Shown here one piece after another: positions 2,378-44,499 of a DNA stretch of 64,000 nucleotides. The DNA is from Bacteroidales bacterium. Lineage in GTDB: Bacteria; Bacteroidota; Bacteroidia; Bacteroidales; ML635J-15. The notes beneath the pieces are model-generated. The model did no database searches. It saw only the letters and a list, made by a program, of their open reading frames with translations, and was not told the origin of the DNA. Numbering within the stretch: position 1 is the stretch's first letter; every line of letters starts with the position of its first letter. The stretch covers positions 124,001-188,000 of the forward strand of contig JAISPG010000041.1 in the NCBI GenBank assembly GCA_031275085.1. The letters are read 5' to 3'. Both the position numbers and the translations under genes were made by a program.

Positions 2378-2566
2378 TGTACTTCTTACTTGACAGGCGG
2401 AGCAACCCGCCAACTATTTAGCGGGCTTTTTTGTGTCCGTTAATTAAAATATGCGGTTTCGTACCCCCGTGTTGGAGCGTTAATGCGCCCACTGCCTGTC
2501 AAGGTGAAGTACAACGGGAAAGGCGGAACCGTTTTTTTATTTCTGCCATATTATTAATTCATTTAA
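2378..2566 (+). ncRNA. Structured leader RNA, copy 1 (apparently undescribed)
   Basis: The element is partner to the copy at 9070-9247. In order: segment a, TGTACTTC (2378-2385); 5' strand TTGACAGGC (2390-2398), which pairs with GCCTGTCAA (2494-2502); an inner CCCGC/GCGGG hairpin plus T6 (2406-2432); a CGG...CCG hairpin near 2454-2469; a hairpin with a bulged A and loop TTAATG (about 2472-2492); segment b, GAAGTACA (2506-2513), the reverse complement of a; and an H-type pseudoknot, AACGG/CCGTT (2513-2517/2529-2533) interlocked with GGCGGAA/TTCTGCC (2522-2528/2541-2547). Segment c, identical to a, overlaps the ORF start at 2568-2575. It is not a class I recognise. Confidence 0.8.
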
Positions 2567-2797
2567 ATGTACTTCAAAATGAAAAATCTTTGCCCCGATT
2601 TAGCCGCTATTTTTTGCGCGGTTGTTAATGTTCGCCACGAATTAGAAACCTACGGCGAAAAATTAGAAGCTTCCATTACCCAAGAAGAACAAACAAATTC
2701 GTTTGAAATTGCAGACGGTGCGGTTAAATTGCTCGAAAGTGCCGTTAAATCGCTATACTTCGACGAATACGAAAGGTATTTGAAGAATAAAGAATAG
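2567..2797 (+). CDS. Small phage protein linked to structured RNA, paralogue of 9248-9517
   Basis: A 76-residue protein of unknown function, or 72 residues if it starts at the in-frame ATG at 2579. Both ATGs and their spacing (ATG-NNN-NNN-AAA-ATG) are kept in the paralogue at 9248. The shared signature is LCPDL near the N-terminus and LLES...SLYFDEY near the C-terminus (LCPEL and LLKD...TLYHEAY in the paralogue). It is acidic and helical, with no signal peptide or membrane segment. It is transcribed with the structured RNA just upstream and closed by a terminator at 2800. RNA-controlled or autoregulatory expression is inferred from the leader. Confidence 0.65.
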   Translation: MYFKMKNLCPDLAAIFCAVVNVRHELETYGEKLEASITQEEQTNSFEIADGAVKLLESAVKSLYFDEYERYLKNKE

Positions 2798-2914: not shown

Positions 2915-3544
2915 ATGAAAATCAGAGATTTAACAGGTCAAAAATTTAGTTTTCTTACAGTTTTAGAAAAAACGGATAAGAGAACGGGCGGAAGCGTTGT
3001 ATGGAAATGTATTTGCGATTGTGGCAACGAAACAGAAGCCAGTAGCGGAAATTTACGGAGCGGACATACAAAGTCTTGCGGTTGCCACAAAAGTAAAGTT
3101 TCTTCTAAAGCATTGACAGAAGTATGCACAAAACACGGACACAGTAAAGCCGGTAATATTTCGAGAACTTACAGCACTTGGCTACACATGACAGACCGTT
3201 GCAATAACCCTAATAACGATTCCTATAAAAATTACGGCGGGCGCGGTATCGAAGTTTGCGAACGTTGGGGCGACTTCTCTAATTTCTTGGAAGATATGGG
3301 CGAACGCCCGAAAGGCACAAGTATAGATAGGATTAACGTTGATTTGGGCTATTTTAAAGATAATTGCCGTTGGGCTACAACAAAGGTACAACGAAATAAT
3401 AAAAGGGACAACCGCAAATATAGCTACAATGGCGAAACACTAACCATTAGCCAATTAGCAGAAAAATACGGAATAGAAAGGGCTAAGTTATCTTACAGGT
3501 TAAAAAACGGTTGGCCAATAGAAAAAGCAATTAATAAAAAATAG
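2915..3544 (+). CDS. Putative homing-type endonuclease (YGGRGI...CRWAT family)
   Basis: This 209-residue phage nuclease-like protein has three parts. Residues 1-60 form a zinc-ribbon-like domain (CICDCG ... SCGC). Residues ~80-165 carry the motif series NYGGRGIEVC, DRINVDLGYF and NCRWATTKVQRNN found in many phage proteins annotated as HNH-like or homing endonucleases. Residues ~168-209 resemble a NUMOD1-type DNA-binding repeat (YNGETLTISQLAEKYGI ... GWPIEKAI). It has its own palindromic promoter and ends 1 nt before the large tail gene, so it looks inserted into the tail operon. AT-rich codon use unlike its neighbours supports mobility. Confidence 0.65.
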   Translation: MKIRDLTGQKFSFLTVLEKTDKRTGGSVVWKCICDCGNETEASSGNLRSGHTKSCGCHKSKVSSKALTEVCTKHGHSKAGNISRTYSTWLHMTDRCNNPNNDSYKNYGGRGIEVCERWGDFSNFLEDMGERPKGTSIDRINVDLGYFKDNCRWATTKVQRNNKRDNRKYSYNGETLTISQLAEKYGIERAKLSYRLKNGWPIEKAINKK

Positions 3545-7043: not shown

Positions 7044-7076
7044 CGTATTATAGTAATACGCTAATGCTTAATTTTG
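7044..7076 (+). promoter_or_regulatory. Palindrome-bearing promoter, copy 2
   Basis: CGTATTATAGTAATACG (7044-7060, perfect 7-bp arms) lies upstream of TAATTTTG (7069-7076), a full TAnnTTTG -7 match. The spacing equals that of the other two copies. It drives the gene at 7089 and the tail-fibre gene behind it. Confidence 0.65.
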
Positions 7077-8757: not shown

Positions 8758-9084
8758 ATGGAGCAAAAACAAGACGACGGAAGTTTATCCTTCCTAAAAA
8801 TTCAACCTGACGCAAATAATCGGCATTTTAATTGCCCAGAAACAACTCAACAAAAATTAATTAATCTTTCGTTTTGGATAATTGATTATTTGGAAGACGT
8901 AAAAACTAAATTCGGGCCTAACCGCTTTCTTGTTAAAGTTAAGTTTAACATAGACGACAACGACAGCGAAGCCCGCAAGTTCTTTACCAACTCTTCCGAA
9001 ATTAAGTACGTTCTTGGGAAAATTAAAGAAATTATTTGCACAATTAAAAATTATGAATTACATTTGCAGTGCTTTCCATTTTGA
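8758..9084 (+). CDS. Phage protein of unknown function
   Basis: A 108-residue protein starting at the ATG at 8758; the longer upstream reading overlaps the fibre gene and lacks a sensible start. It has a helical core (TTQQKLINLSFWIIDYLEDV) followed by strands (NRFLVKVKFNIDDND) and FFTNSSEIKYVLGKI, suggesting a small alpha/beta or OB-like domain. I do not recognise a family. Its stop codon (TGA, 9082-9084) lies inside the 5' strand of structured-RNA copy 2, and the promoter of that RNA lies within its last codons. Confidence 0.65.
   Translation: MEQKQDDGSLSFLKIQPDANNRHFNCPETTQQKLINLSFWIIDYLEDVKTKFGPNRFLVKVKFNIDDNDSEARKFFTNSSEIKYVLGKIKEIICTIKNYELHLQCFPF
9035..9066 (+). promoter_or_regulatory. 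Promoter of structured RNA, copy 2
   Basis: TTTG at 9035-9038, 20 nt, then TACATTTG at 9059-9066, a full -7 match. The block TTTGCACAATT is identical to copy 1. It is embedded in the 3' end of the preceding ORF. Confidence 0.7.
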
Positions 9085-9247
9085 CAGGCGGAGTAACCCG
9101 CCAAATTATTAGCGGGCTTTTTTATGCCCGATTATGATATAACGGTTTGTACCCCCGTGTAGAAGGTTAATGCCTCTACTGCCTGTCAAAGGTGGAAAGC
9201 AACGGGACAGGCAAGCCGTTTTTTCTTGCCTATAATATTCATTTAAA
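9070..9247 (+). ncRNA. Structured leader RNA, copy 2 (apparently undescribed)
   Basis: Same architecture as 2378-2566, with compensatory changes. Segment a is TGCTTTCC (9070-9077) and segment b is GGAAAGCA (9194-9201), where copy 1 has TGTACTTC and GAAGTACA. The long stem TTGACAGGC (9081-9089) / GCCTGTCAA (9181-9189) is identical. The inner terminator-like hairpin (9097-9123) and the bulged-A hairpin (loop TTAATG) are kept. The pseudoknot is AACGG/CCGTT (9201-9205/9216-9220) with GGCAAG/CTTGCC (9210-9215/9225-9230), again co-varying with copy 1. Segment c (9249-9256) overlaps the ORF start. Confidence 0.8.
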
Positions 9248-9517
9248 ATGCTTTCCAAAATGAAAAAAGAAAATCAAAGCAAAGTAATTCCTTTGCACCT
9301 TTGCCCCGAACTTTCGGAAATAATCGGCGATACGGTTGCCGTAATGCAAAAGTTTGATAGATACAAAAAGTATGTATCTACTAACAGTAATTGCGAAAAT
9401 GTGATGATAAATGTAGCTGAAAGTTCGTTTAACCTATTAAAAGACACCTTTCAAACGCTTTACCACGAGGCATATATAAAGGATATAGAGCGACGGGCGC
9501 GAATTTTTGCCCAATGA
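9248..9517 (+). CDS. Small phage protein linked to structured RNA, paralogue of 2567-2797
   Basis: An 89-residue protein, or 85 residues from the second conserved ATG at 9260. It shares with the paralogue at 2567 the LCP(D/E)L start, a central helix, and (V/I)AES-FNLLKD...LYHEAY near the end, so the whole promoter-RNA-ORF unit has been duplicated and has diverged. There is no signal peptide, membrane helix or known motif. Start-codon region 9249-9256 is complementary to segment b of the leader, so translation may be switched by RNA pairing. The function is unknown. Confidence 0.65.
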   Translation: MLSKMKKENQSKVIPLHLCPELSEIIGDTVAVMQKFDRYKKYVSTNSNCENVMINVAESSFNLLKDTFQTLYHEAYIKDIERRARIFAQ

Positions 9518-9544: not shown

Positions 9545-9577
9545 CATTTAAAAAGATATTATTATTTTATTAACTAA

Positions 9578-9610
9578 CGTATTATTATAATACGATTAAT
9601 GTTATTTTTG
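9578..9610 (+). promoter_or_regulatory. Palindrome-bearing promoter, copy 3
   Basis: CGTATTATTATAATACG (9578-9594) is a perfect palindrome with 8-bp arms around a central T, 25 bp start-to-start from TATTTTTG (9603-9610). The HNH gene starts at 9631. It matches the sites at 2861 and 7044. Confidence 0.7.
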
Positions 9611-9630: not shown

Positions 9631-10188
9631 ATGGAATACAAATTTGAAAAATGGGTGCCTATAATCGGGTATGAAGGGCTATATGAAGTTAGCAATAATG
9701 GATACGTTAAAAGTTTGAGTAATAGCAAAACGAGAAAAGAAAAAATTCTTAATCAAAATTTGAATAGGGACGGATATTGTTTAGTGTTTTTATGTAAAAA
9801 TGGAAAACGAAAGGCTTTTACAGTACATAGGTTAGTGGCTATTGCATTTATTCCAAACAGTGAAAATAAATGTGAGGTTAATCACATTAACGGAATAAAA
9901 AATGACAATAGGTCTGACAATTTAGAATGGAATACAAGAATAGAGAATTTAAAACATAGAACCAAAACGCTTGAATATTCACATTCAGAAATGACAAAAC
10001 ATAAAATATCTGAAACTCGAAAGAAAAAAGGCGTTTTACAAATATGTTCAGAAAGCAAAACAATAATTGCAGAGTTTAGTGATTCTTACCTTGCAGAACG
10101 CGAAACGGGGATTAACCAAGGTAATATTATTCAATGTTGTAAAGGAAAAAGAAAAATTGCCGGTGGGTATTTTTGGAAATATGTATAA
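9631..10188 (+). CDS. NUMOD4/HNH homing endonuclease
   Basis: The 185-residue protein has the standard layout of phage homing endonucleases: an N-terminal NUMOD4 motif (KWVPIIGYEGLYEVSNNGYV), a central HNH domain (VHRLVAIAFIPN ... EVNHINGIKNDNRSDNLEW) with the expected His/Asn residues, and a C-terminal NUMOD1-like DNA-binding repeat (FSDSYLAERETGINQGNI ... GGYFWKYV). It should make a double-strand break in cognate DNA lacking the gene and so spread by repair. It sits after RNA/ORF module 2 under its own palindromic promoter, as the unrelated nuclease at 2915 sits after module 1. Confidence 0.9.
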   Translation: MEYKFEKWVPIIGYEGLYEVSNNGYVKSLSNSKTRKEKILNQNLNRDGYCLVFLCKNGKRKAFTVHRLVAIAFIPNSENKCEVNHINGIKNDNRSDNLEWNTRIENLKHRTKTLEYSHSEMTKHKISETRKKKGVLQICSESKTIIAEFSDSYLAERETGINQGNIIQCCKGKRKIAGGYFWKYV

Positions 10189-44249: not shown

Positions 44250-44499
44250 AACATTATATTTTTTTTTATGCCTACTCTATTTAAAGTTTTCGGCTTCCCT
44301 TTTGCATGTAAAACTATAAAATTTATAGATTTAACAAAATTTTTGCAGATATTTTTTATTTATTATTATATTTTTTTTTCATAATTTATAAAAAGCGGTA
44401 CAATAGTCTAATATATAAGCTATTATAACCGACTATATATTTGATTTATATTTAAGATGGTTTCGGAATTAAAACTTAAGTGTAAAATTTTAATTATTA

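Follow-up and report, generated by a model that had tools for sequence, protein, structure and literature searches.

The DNA analysed here is a 64,000-nucleotide stretch (the window) of contig JAISPG010000041.1, from a Bacteroidales bacterium, and represents phage DNA inside a bacterial contig, with tail, endolysin and HNH endonuclease genes nearby. Two copies of a compact element occur on its forward strand, each consisting of a predicted promoter, a short segment a, a structured region containing a segment b, and an open reading frame (ORF) with a segment c at its start. A sequence-only reading had noted that an 8-mer in b is the reverse complement of 8-mers in a and c; all six 8-mers are present and exact in the two window copies, and the constant flanks that it described around b were likewise recovered in both.

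In copy 1 the predicted promoter (2343-2374) combines a TTTG (2343-2346) with the -7 box TTACTTTG (2367-2374), which we take to follow the Bacteroides consensus. Site a, the predicted 5' end of the RNA, follows at 2378-2385 (TGTACTTC); its ninth base is altered with respect to the 9-nt unit described below, so that it fits at 8/9 positions. The 5' strand of helix P1 (TTGACAGGC, 2390-2398) pairs with 2494-2502 according to covariation and folding. The 3' domain (2453-2539), delimited by folding, pair counts and covariation, contains: helix PT (2453-2462 with 2523-2532), an inner helix (2466-2470 with 2514-2518), the hairpins H4 (2473-2491) and H6 (2494-2505), and a U-run (2533-2539). The antisense segment b spans 2505-2513 (TGAAGTACA; 8-mer GAAGTACA at 2506-2513), and a single base, X, at 2493 is the partner of its fourth base, b4 (2508), as judged from complementarity in homologues. 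The start codon lies at 2567 and overlaps c (2568-2576, TGTACTTCA; 8-mer TGTACTTC at 2568-2575). It opens a putative regulated ORF of 76 aa (2567-2797), which has in-frame ATGs at 2567 and 2579.

Copy 2 repeats this order: a predicted promoter (9035-9066; TTTG 9035-9038, TACATTTG 9059-9066), site a (9070-9078, TGCTTTCCA; 8-mer TGCTTTCC at 9070-9077), the 5' strand of P1 (9081-9089, folding onto 9181-9189), the 3' domain with PT, H4, H6 and U-run (9142-9224; X at 9180), site b (9193-9201, TGGAAAGCA; 8-mer GGAAAGCA at 9194-9201), an ATG at 9248 with c (9249-9257, TGCTTTCCA; 8-mer TGCTTTCC at 9249-9256), and a putative regulated ORF of 89 aa (9248-9517) that resembles the C-terminus of a Bro-N protein. 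Its 3' domain was placed with a covariance model of this domain, R1, which matched at 92.1 bits (G000:C33:133139-133231, window 9139-9231). R1 found three elements in the source genome (incomplete, 89%): the two in the window and a third outside it on the opposite strand (around 112.6 kb of the same contig, minus strand), which carries the code TGCTTAACA exactly at a, b and c. The three elements of this genome thus have three codes (TGTACTTCA, TGCTTTCCA and TGCTTAACA).

Some further features of the window were recorded. An ORF upstream of copy 2 (8758-9084) spans the promoter and site a and stops at a TGA within helix P1. HNH endonuclease genes follow both modules (2915-3544 and 9631-10188), their best PHROGs being different, and a palindrome like CGTATTATnnTAATACG recurs at 2858-2877, 7044-7063 and 9575-9604, that is before both HNH genes and near 7050; it is perhaps a promoter or operator. 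A DUF805b RNA (RF02914) at 44269-44303 on the minus strand (48.4 bits) is unrelated to the element.

Homologues were retrieved with a core motif that excludes a, b and c, for which viral contigs gave 57 stretches and genome contigs 62. By title the latter are Bacteroidota, except for one uncultured bacterium record and two stretches from a Merdimonas MAG; the element occurs in records of Porphyromonas phages and, going by genome titles, in Bacteroides, Barnesiella, Alistipes, Flavobacterium and others. A first parse accommodated 107 of 109 stretches; the two without b were L040, which is not an element, and L093, and a further stretch, L110, is a fragment. L093 (CALUNJ010000170.1, 1248-1283) is a CRISPR spacer that matches the element core, in a locus with 45 exact copies of the repeat GTTTCAATTCCATAAGGTACGATTAAAAG, which implies that the MAG concerned, titled Paraprevotella, carries a spacer against the phage element. 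The set of 116 elements compared below was defined by its own core and b pattern, stretches that did not fit being left out; core motif alone yielded 98 of them and BLAST with the element or its relatives the remaining 18. R1 matched 4 of 395 genomes across the phylum and 15 of 393 across the order (source genome included in both), a patchy distribution as expected for mobile DNA. No Rfam family matched the element when the window was searched at the gathering threshold (only DUF805b elsewhere), nor did any match 20 of the loci at that threshold, and a search of 2300-2640 at E ≤ 5 returned one weak and unrelated match. A plasmid collection searched with the element of L025 gave no match, and an exact 22-mer from the window, a very stringent query, had none in the viral contigs.

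The conserved unit at the three sites is 9 nt long and reads TG-N5-CA. With a fit defined as a match to the reverse complement of b at 8 or 9 of the 9 positions, b is complementary to the predicted RNA 5' end in 104/116 elements, to the ORF start in 84/116 and to both in 78/116; for the 98 elements retrieved by core motif alone these numbers are 88 (a) and 71 (c). The identity a = c = reverse complement of b, proposed from the two window copies, therefore holds for most homologues, not for all: 12 lack a good a and 32 a good 9-nt c. Independent variation of the three sites, which would have counted against the proposal, is rare for a and b and confined to a minority for b and c. A fair test of the rule is the comparison of N5 after a and c have been located blind to b, which was possible for 88 a and 62 c. 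Agreement with b was then found in 432 of 440 cells (a) and 269 of 310 cells (c), versus means of 196 and 132 and maxima of 236 and 152 in 500 shuffles. The three-way complementarity is real and general, and chance is excluded by the shuffles. The sites are also fixed in position: a TTTG lies exactly 3 nt before a in 95/104 homologues, so a is predicted to form the first bases of the RNA, and c abuts or overlaps the start codon: for at least 81 of the 84 c sites an ATG begins either at position -1 or between +8 and +12.

The 32 elements without a 9-nt c are of several kinds. In four of them the available DNA ends first, and inspection by eye revealed a split c in at least seven elements (L044, L050, L055, L063, L083, L112, L114), composed of a copy of part of a and part of the 5' strand of P1; in others, such as L124, L127, L131 and L133, no c was visible by eye. 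Extension of c into the P1 strand was considered as a general rule and set aside, since only 11/99 elements extend by at least 7 bases (1.8% in swaps); it was retained as a subtype, found in 7/25 elements without a 9-nt c versus 4/74 others. Another 15 loci gave a at 8 or more positions in 13 and c in 7, with some doubtful parses (for example L163), and the additional loci L161, L168 and L176 were left unparsed.

A fourth base changes with the code. Located between H4 and P1, X complements b4 in 108/109 elements (81 T-A, 24 A-T and 3 G-T pairs, with a G-A as the single exception), with a mutual information of 0.885 against a shuffle maximum of 0.214 (52 distinct combinations), and the two bases pair in 62/62 rows of alignment A1. 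An alignment-wide covariation scan of 104 elements placed a-b, b-c, P1, PT, H4, X-b4 and H6 near the top, where the signal of a-b and b-c is partly built in because the rows were pre-selected for a good a, and c was entered only where good. P1 and H6 have bases in common, as do a-b and X-b4, and these pairings are hence confined to two exclusive states: X-b4 and H6 both covary and are incompatible with the a-P1-b helix. In state I b lies on a, which is what ViennaRNA predicts for the full-length RNA of copy 1 (-64.3 kcal/mol, z -5.0) and copy 2 (-61.8 kcal/mol, z -5.9). State II is a cloverleaf, predicted for the 3' domain of copy 1 alone (-34.4 kcal/mol, z -2.7). Within A1, both partners vary in 20 of the 27 pairs that make up state II, and 86.7% of its cells pair, compared with 77.0% after shuffling and at most 49.7% in slid controls; the outer helix PT is its weakest part (68.8% of cells). 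A small hairpin just within the ORF, with changes on both sides by eye, was seen in L044, L055, L063, L083, L112 and L078 (for example GGCTC-ACCAAAC-GAGCC and GCCC-ACCGAAC-GGGC), mostly within a shared peptide like NNSSNQTGTAHQT; it is possibly a second structured part of the mRNA.

Close relatives show how fast the code changes. L046 and L048 share about 98% identity in two blocks of some 2.2 kb each, one of which contains the element, and nevertheless 3 of the 5 N5 bases are replaced at a, b and c alike and X is altered too; further differences lie in the promoter spacer and in a few bases past c. In 12 pairs with scaffolds at least 95% identical, which are not independent of each other, the scaffold differs at 2.8% and the N5 of b at 41.7% of positions (N5 is identical in three of them), and in the bands between 80 and 95% scaffold identity N5 differs by 29 to 49%. 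This hypervariability could reflect selection that favours new codes, or entire modules may have recombined; the data fit either.

The same scheme recurs at equivalent sites in three scaffolds of different appearance. The records of Porphyromonas gingivalis phages, for which parts of 14 of the 18 matching records were covered, contain 18 elements with seven codes, 12 in scaffold 1 (that of the window) and six in a second scaffold. Sixteen of the 18 are exact at a, b and c and the other two match at 8/9 in c, and the three-way rule is kept in all six scaffold-2 elements. The annotation of these records has a gene for DNA primase downstream in 14/14 and a repressor upstream in 12/14. Scaffold 3 was found upstream in two arrays and at 12 other loci; its b is up to 18 nt long and in 14/14 cases agrees with the c of the same element at 15-18 of 18 positions, versus a mean of 10.6 matches for swapped b-c combinations, 7 of 180 of which reach 15. 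Here b fits c better than a in 11/14 elements, equally well in two and worse in one, and the 13 distinct b have on average 1.5 G-U pairs with a and 0.5 with c, as would be expected of an antisense strand that is masked by a.

Elements can also stand in tandem, as in L041, L052, L009, L147 and L151, where each unit has its own code. The tandems of L041, L052 and L151 mix scaffolds, and those of L041, L052 and L009 keep only an ORF start between units; two P. gingivalis phage records have three elements each, and in one of these records all three belong to scaffold 1 and differ in code. Some units resemble orphans reduced to the 3' domain. L009/L089, on a Barnesiella contig, has neither a good a nor a good c; its b (TGTAGTGCA) fits the c of L138, from another Barnesiella MAG (8/9), and of L181, from the same genus (9/9). 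Two distant elements, L178 and L179 (about 35 bits with R1), have a c that by eye belongs partly to b and partly to the P1 strand, and precede Bro-N ORFs (E 4.3e-26 and 1.5e-23).

The annotations of the ORFs behind c contain a recognisable though partial functional theme. Among 106 first ORFs, Pfam (E ≤ 0.001) identified only Phage_pRha (6), SymE_toxin (5), Bro-N (4), ANT (3), AntA (1) and HigB (1); at least 86 had no match, so the link to antirepressors and toxins is a partial one. The commonest PHROG family among them was the anti-repressor Ant (8/106). The second ORFs (59 of 62 scanned, the other three being first ORFs of a neighbouring element) yielded ANT (5), KilA-N (5), P22_AR_N (1) and Rha (1), several HTH families, a tail protein and others once each. 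Control ORFs from the same loci (100 of 124) exceeded many of the first ORFs in length; of the 43 families found in them, the 25 listed included a single antirepressor-type one (ORF6N, once), with Abi_2, AbiH and the Panacea antitoxin domain once each. In L025, L029, L031, L038, L041, L046, L050 and L052 the second ORF overlaps the first by four bases (offset -4), which suggests coupled translation. The third copy of the source genome precedes a 323-aa protein with a Bro-N domain (E 1.6e-25), to whose C-terminus the 89-aa ORF of the window is 53% identical over 78 aa (E 4e-26). The 76-aa ORF, without a Pfam match above the cut-off or a PHROG match, resembles the same C-terminus (E 2e-6) and the 89-aa ORF (E 8e-6). 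Because of this resemblance it is plausible that both ORFs of the window are fragments or partners of antirepressors.

We read the element as a promoter-driven antisense RNA gene that silences the ORF just downstream by pairing of b with c in trans and acts as a lysogeny or immunity lock, and give this a probability of roughly 0.68. The sequences supply the pairing potential, the covariation, the predicted position of a at the RNA 5' end and of c at the start codon, the two exclusive folds and the recognisable kinds of target; from these we infer transcription, action in trans, a block of translation, attenuation and immunity. The RNA would run from a to the U-run past helix PT, a length of about 155-162 nt for the two copies in the window, or, if processed, consist of the 80-nt 3' domain, whose cloverleaf would leave most of b single-stranded. 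In trans, b would pair with c at the start codon of read-through mRNA and thereby block its translation. Within one molecule, pairing of a with b would mask b, so that a would serve as mask and as second target: b may also pair with a on a transcript that is still being made, whereupon PT could form and bring transcription to an early end. This attenuation is the weakest step and is suggested by a moderate signal, an alternative hairpin of at least 7 pairs beyond the U-run in 53/94 elements versus 26% in swaps. The silenced genes would include antirepressors, toxins and small leader ORFs, and for that reason the lock would probably be one of lysogeny and immunity. N5 would set the specificity, and phages whose a, b, c and X change jointly would cease to respond to one another's RNA; this would account for both the hypervariability of N5 and the tandem copies with different codes.

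Duplex energies agree with such specificity. In 73 elements the cognate b-c duplex has a mean of -16.0 kcal/mol versus -7.7 for non-cognate ones, and in 51 of the 73 no non-cognate target binds as well; these elements were pre-selected for a good a and c, so the pairing is partly there by construction. The minimum free energy structures of their full transcripts have b on a in 70/73 and b on c in 0/73, and pairing with c would consequently need an RNA in which b is free, such as the 3' domain, reached via processing or kinetics. When that domain was cofolded with its own mRNA start, b-c formed in 22/73 cases, and in 0/219 with foreign starts; since this is a minority of the elements, b-c pairing would need help. 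The 32 of 116 elements without a 9-nt c speak against the antisense reading.

The sequence-only reading had pictured a switch in which b pairs either with a or with c. Its part about exclusive pairings stands: the double complementarity of b implies two mutually exclusive states. The part that places both in a single molecule is weakened. In such a switch, b on a would turn the gene on and b on c turn it off, perhaps in response to a ligand, a protein or temperature. Both pairings are indeed possible within one read-through RNA, where they exclude each other, and the 3' half has two exclusive folds, yet in the 73 selected elements the pairing with c was not reached at equilibrium in any, and a helix that looks like an intrinsic terminator separates b from c. 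Moreover, a cis switch has no need for diversity of N5, the part that changes fastest on a constant scaffold, and gives no reason for differing codes in tandem copies, for which an antisense RNA acting in trans does provide one. We consider the cis switch unlikely.

If the elements were a family of type I toxin-antitoxin systems, with the RNA as antitoxin, the ORFs as toxins and no role in immunity, the five SymE_toxin and one HigB matches among the 106 first ORFs would be accounted for, as would the many short first ORFs, some of which appear by eye to span a membrane. The pairing mechanism would be the same as in the antisense lock, so that only the purpose differs; but recognisable antirepressors are at least as many among the first ORFs (Rha 6, Bro-N 4, AntA 1), the second ORFs add KilA-N (5) and ANT (5), and there seems to be about one chance in ten that toxins explain the family. 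That the RNA instead activates the ORF, by opening an inhibitory mRNA structure upon b-c pairing or by protecting the mRNA, is compatible with all sequence results and has a parallel in IsrK of Gifsy-1, which is described as making a ribosome site accessible within the operon it belongs to (PMC4825925). A duplex at the place where c lies relative to the ATG normally blocks initiation, and activation is accordingly improbable. The proposal of a guide with duplicated target, that is an RNA-guided mobile element with b as guide and a and c as target copies left by insertion, is very improbable: a and c do form direct repeats around a constant scaffold and HNH genes follow both window copies, but near-identical ORF contexts (L046, L048) carry different 9-mers, the c of homologous ORF starts differing in step with b, so that insertion into diverse targets is not how c arose; a is tied to the promoter, X inside the scaffold tracks b too, and no DNA nuclease or transposase Pfam family occurs in the 106 first and 59 second ORFs. 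Target-site duplication was rejected because homologous contexts of c carry different codes, and HNH homing as part of the unit because the first and second ORFs of homologues contain no DNA nuclease.

Among known RNAs, the best reading is that the element resembles the CI RNA of satellite phage P4 in layout (seqA-seqB-seqC) and would act like the C4 RNA of P1/P7; the likeness is one of plan and function, and in fold the element looks different. The P4 CI RNA carries seqB and is 69 nt long, and the 3' domain here is near that size. In the lysogenic state CI RNA is antisense to two sites that flank it, seqA on the upstream and seqC on the downstream side (PMC4825925). The likeness, one of layout, lies in the complementary sites on both sides, present together in two thirds of the elements (78/116). 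The element differs in phylum, in the position of c on the start codon and in the terminator-like helix that ends the RNA; CI acts by transcription termination, for which there is here only helix PT with its U-run and the possible alternative hairpin. C4 RNA is described as antisense to the start region of ant and the basis of heteroimmunity (PMC12197685). It is a short, stable RNA that acts in trans, with a length of 77 nt in a review table. Its range is tabulated as Proteobacteria and phages, with a c4-a1b1 motif listed separately beside it (PMC2864571). Complementarity to the start of the downstream gene is shared with C4 (c fits in 84/116; 269/310 blind N5 cells), and C4 targets an antirepressor operon, to be compared with Rha 6, Bro-N 4, ANT 3 and AntA 1 of 106 first ORFs here. 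In contrast to C4, the element has one short exchangeable code, a fourth covarying base and diverse ORFs, and the C4 model (RF01695) matched neither the window, nor 2300-2640 at E ≤ 5, nor the 20 loci at the gathering threshold.

The sar RNA of P22 and IsrK of Gifsy-1 are likewise small prophage RNAs that act on antirepressor-type operons; the accounts of them drawn on here mention no exchangeable code at three sites. The gene arrangement of sar differs from that of the element. SymR/SymE of Escherichia coli is a type I toxin-antitoxin system in which SymR is transcribed from the strand opposite symE. It is similar in that SymE-family genes (5/106 first ORFs here) are under an antisense RNA, and different in that the RNA here lies upstream on the same strand and pairs via a short segment. 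No description of the element family was found in the open-access literature (preprints excluded and few subscription papers included). It may be among the 3161 candidate structured RNAs reported from human microbiomes (PMC8040213); one of these, HMP2_4078, lies near phage domains in Bacteroidetes and is palindromic (109 bp), which the present element overall is not.

New here are the fourth covarying base, the alternative cloverleaf fold, the two further scaffolds that obey the same rule with up to 18 nt, the tandem copies with different codes, and the finding that some target ORFs are antirepressors or SymE-type toxins. To our knowledge, little is known about the control of lysogeny in phages of Bacteroidota. 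The elements form a recognisable RNA family that Rfam does not list, and at some of their loci they point to switch genes of the antirepressor type. From five bases they predict which prophages should be immune to one another, so that immunity groups among gut and oral phages would become open to testing by sequence; they would also hint at roles for many small ORFs of unknown function and would be a clear case of RNA specificity that evolves at four linked places. Tentatively, and as a proposal that we would sooner doubt than assert, N5 (or the longer b of scaffold 3) could be a swappable address under diversifying selection, an RNA immunity code with which arrays silence the antirepressors of other phages. 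If so, prophages would stack different addresses, sometimes with an ORF stub between units. The element could also provide orthogonal repressors for Bacteroides. An RNA lock with interchangeable keys could be what holds the prophages of gut and mouth Bacteroidota quiet.
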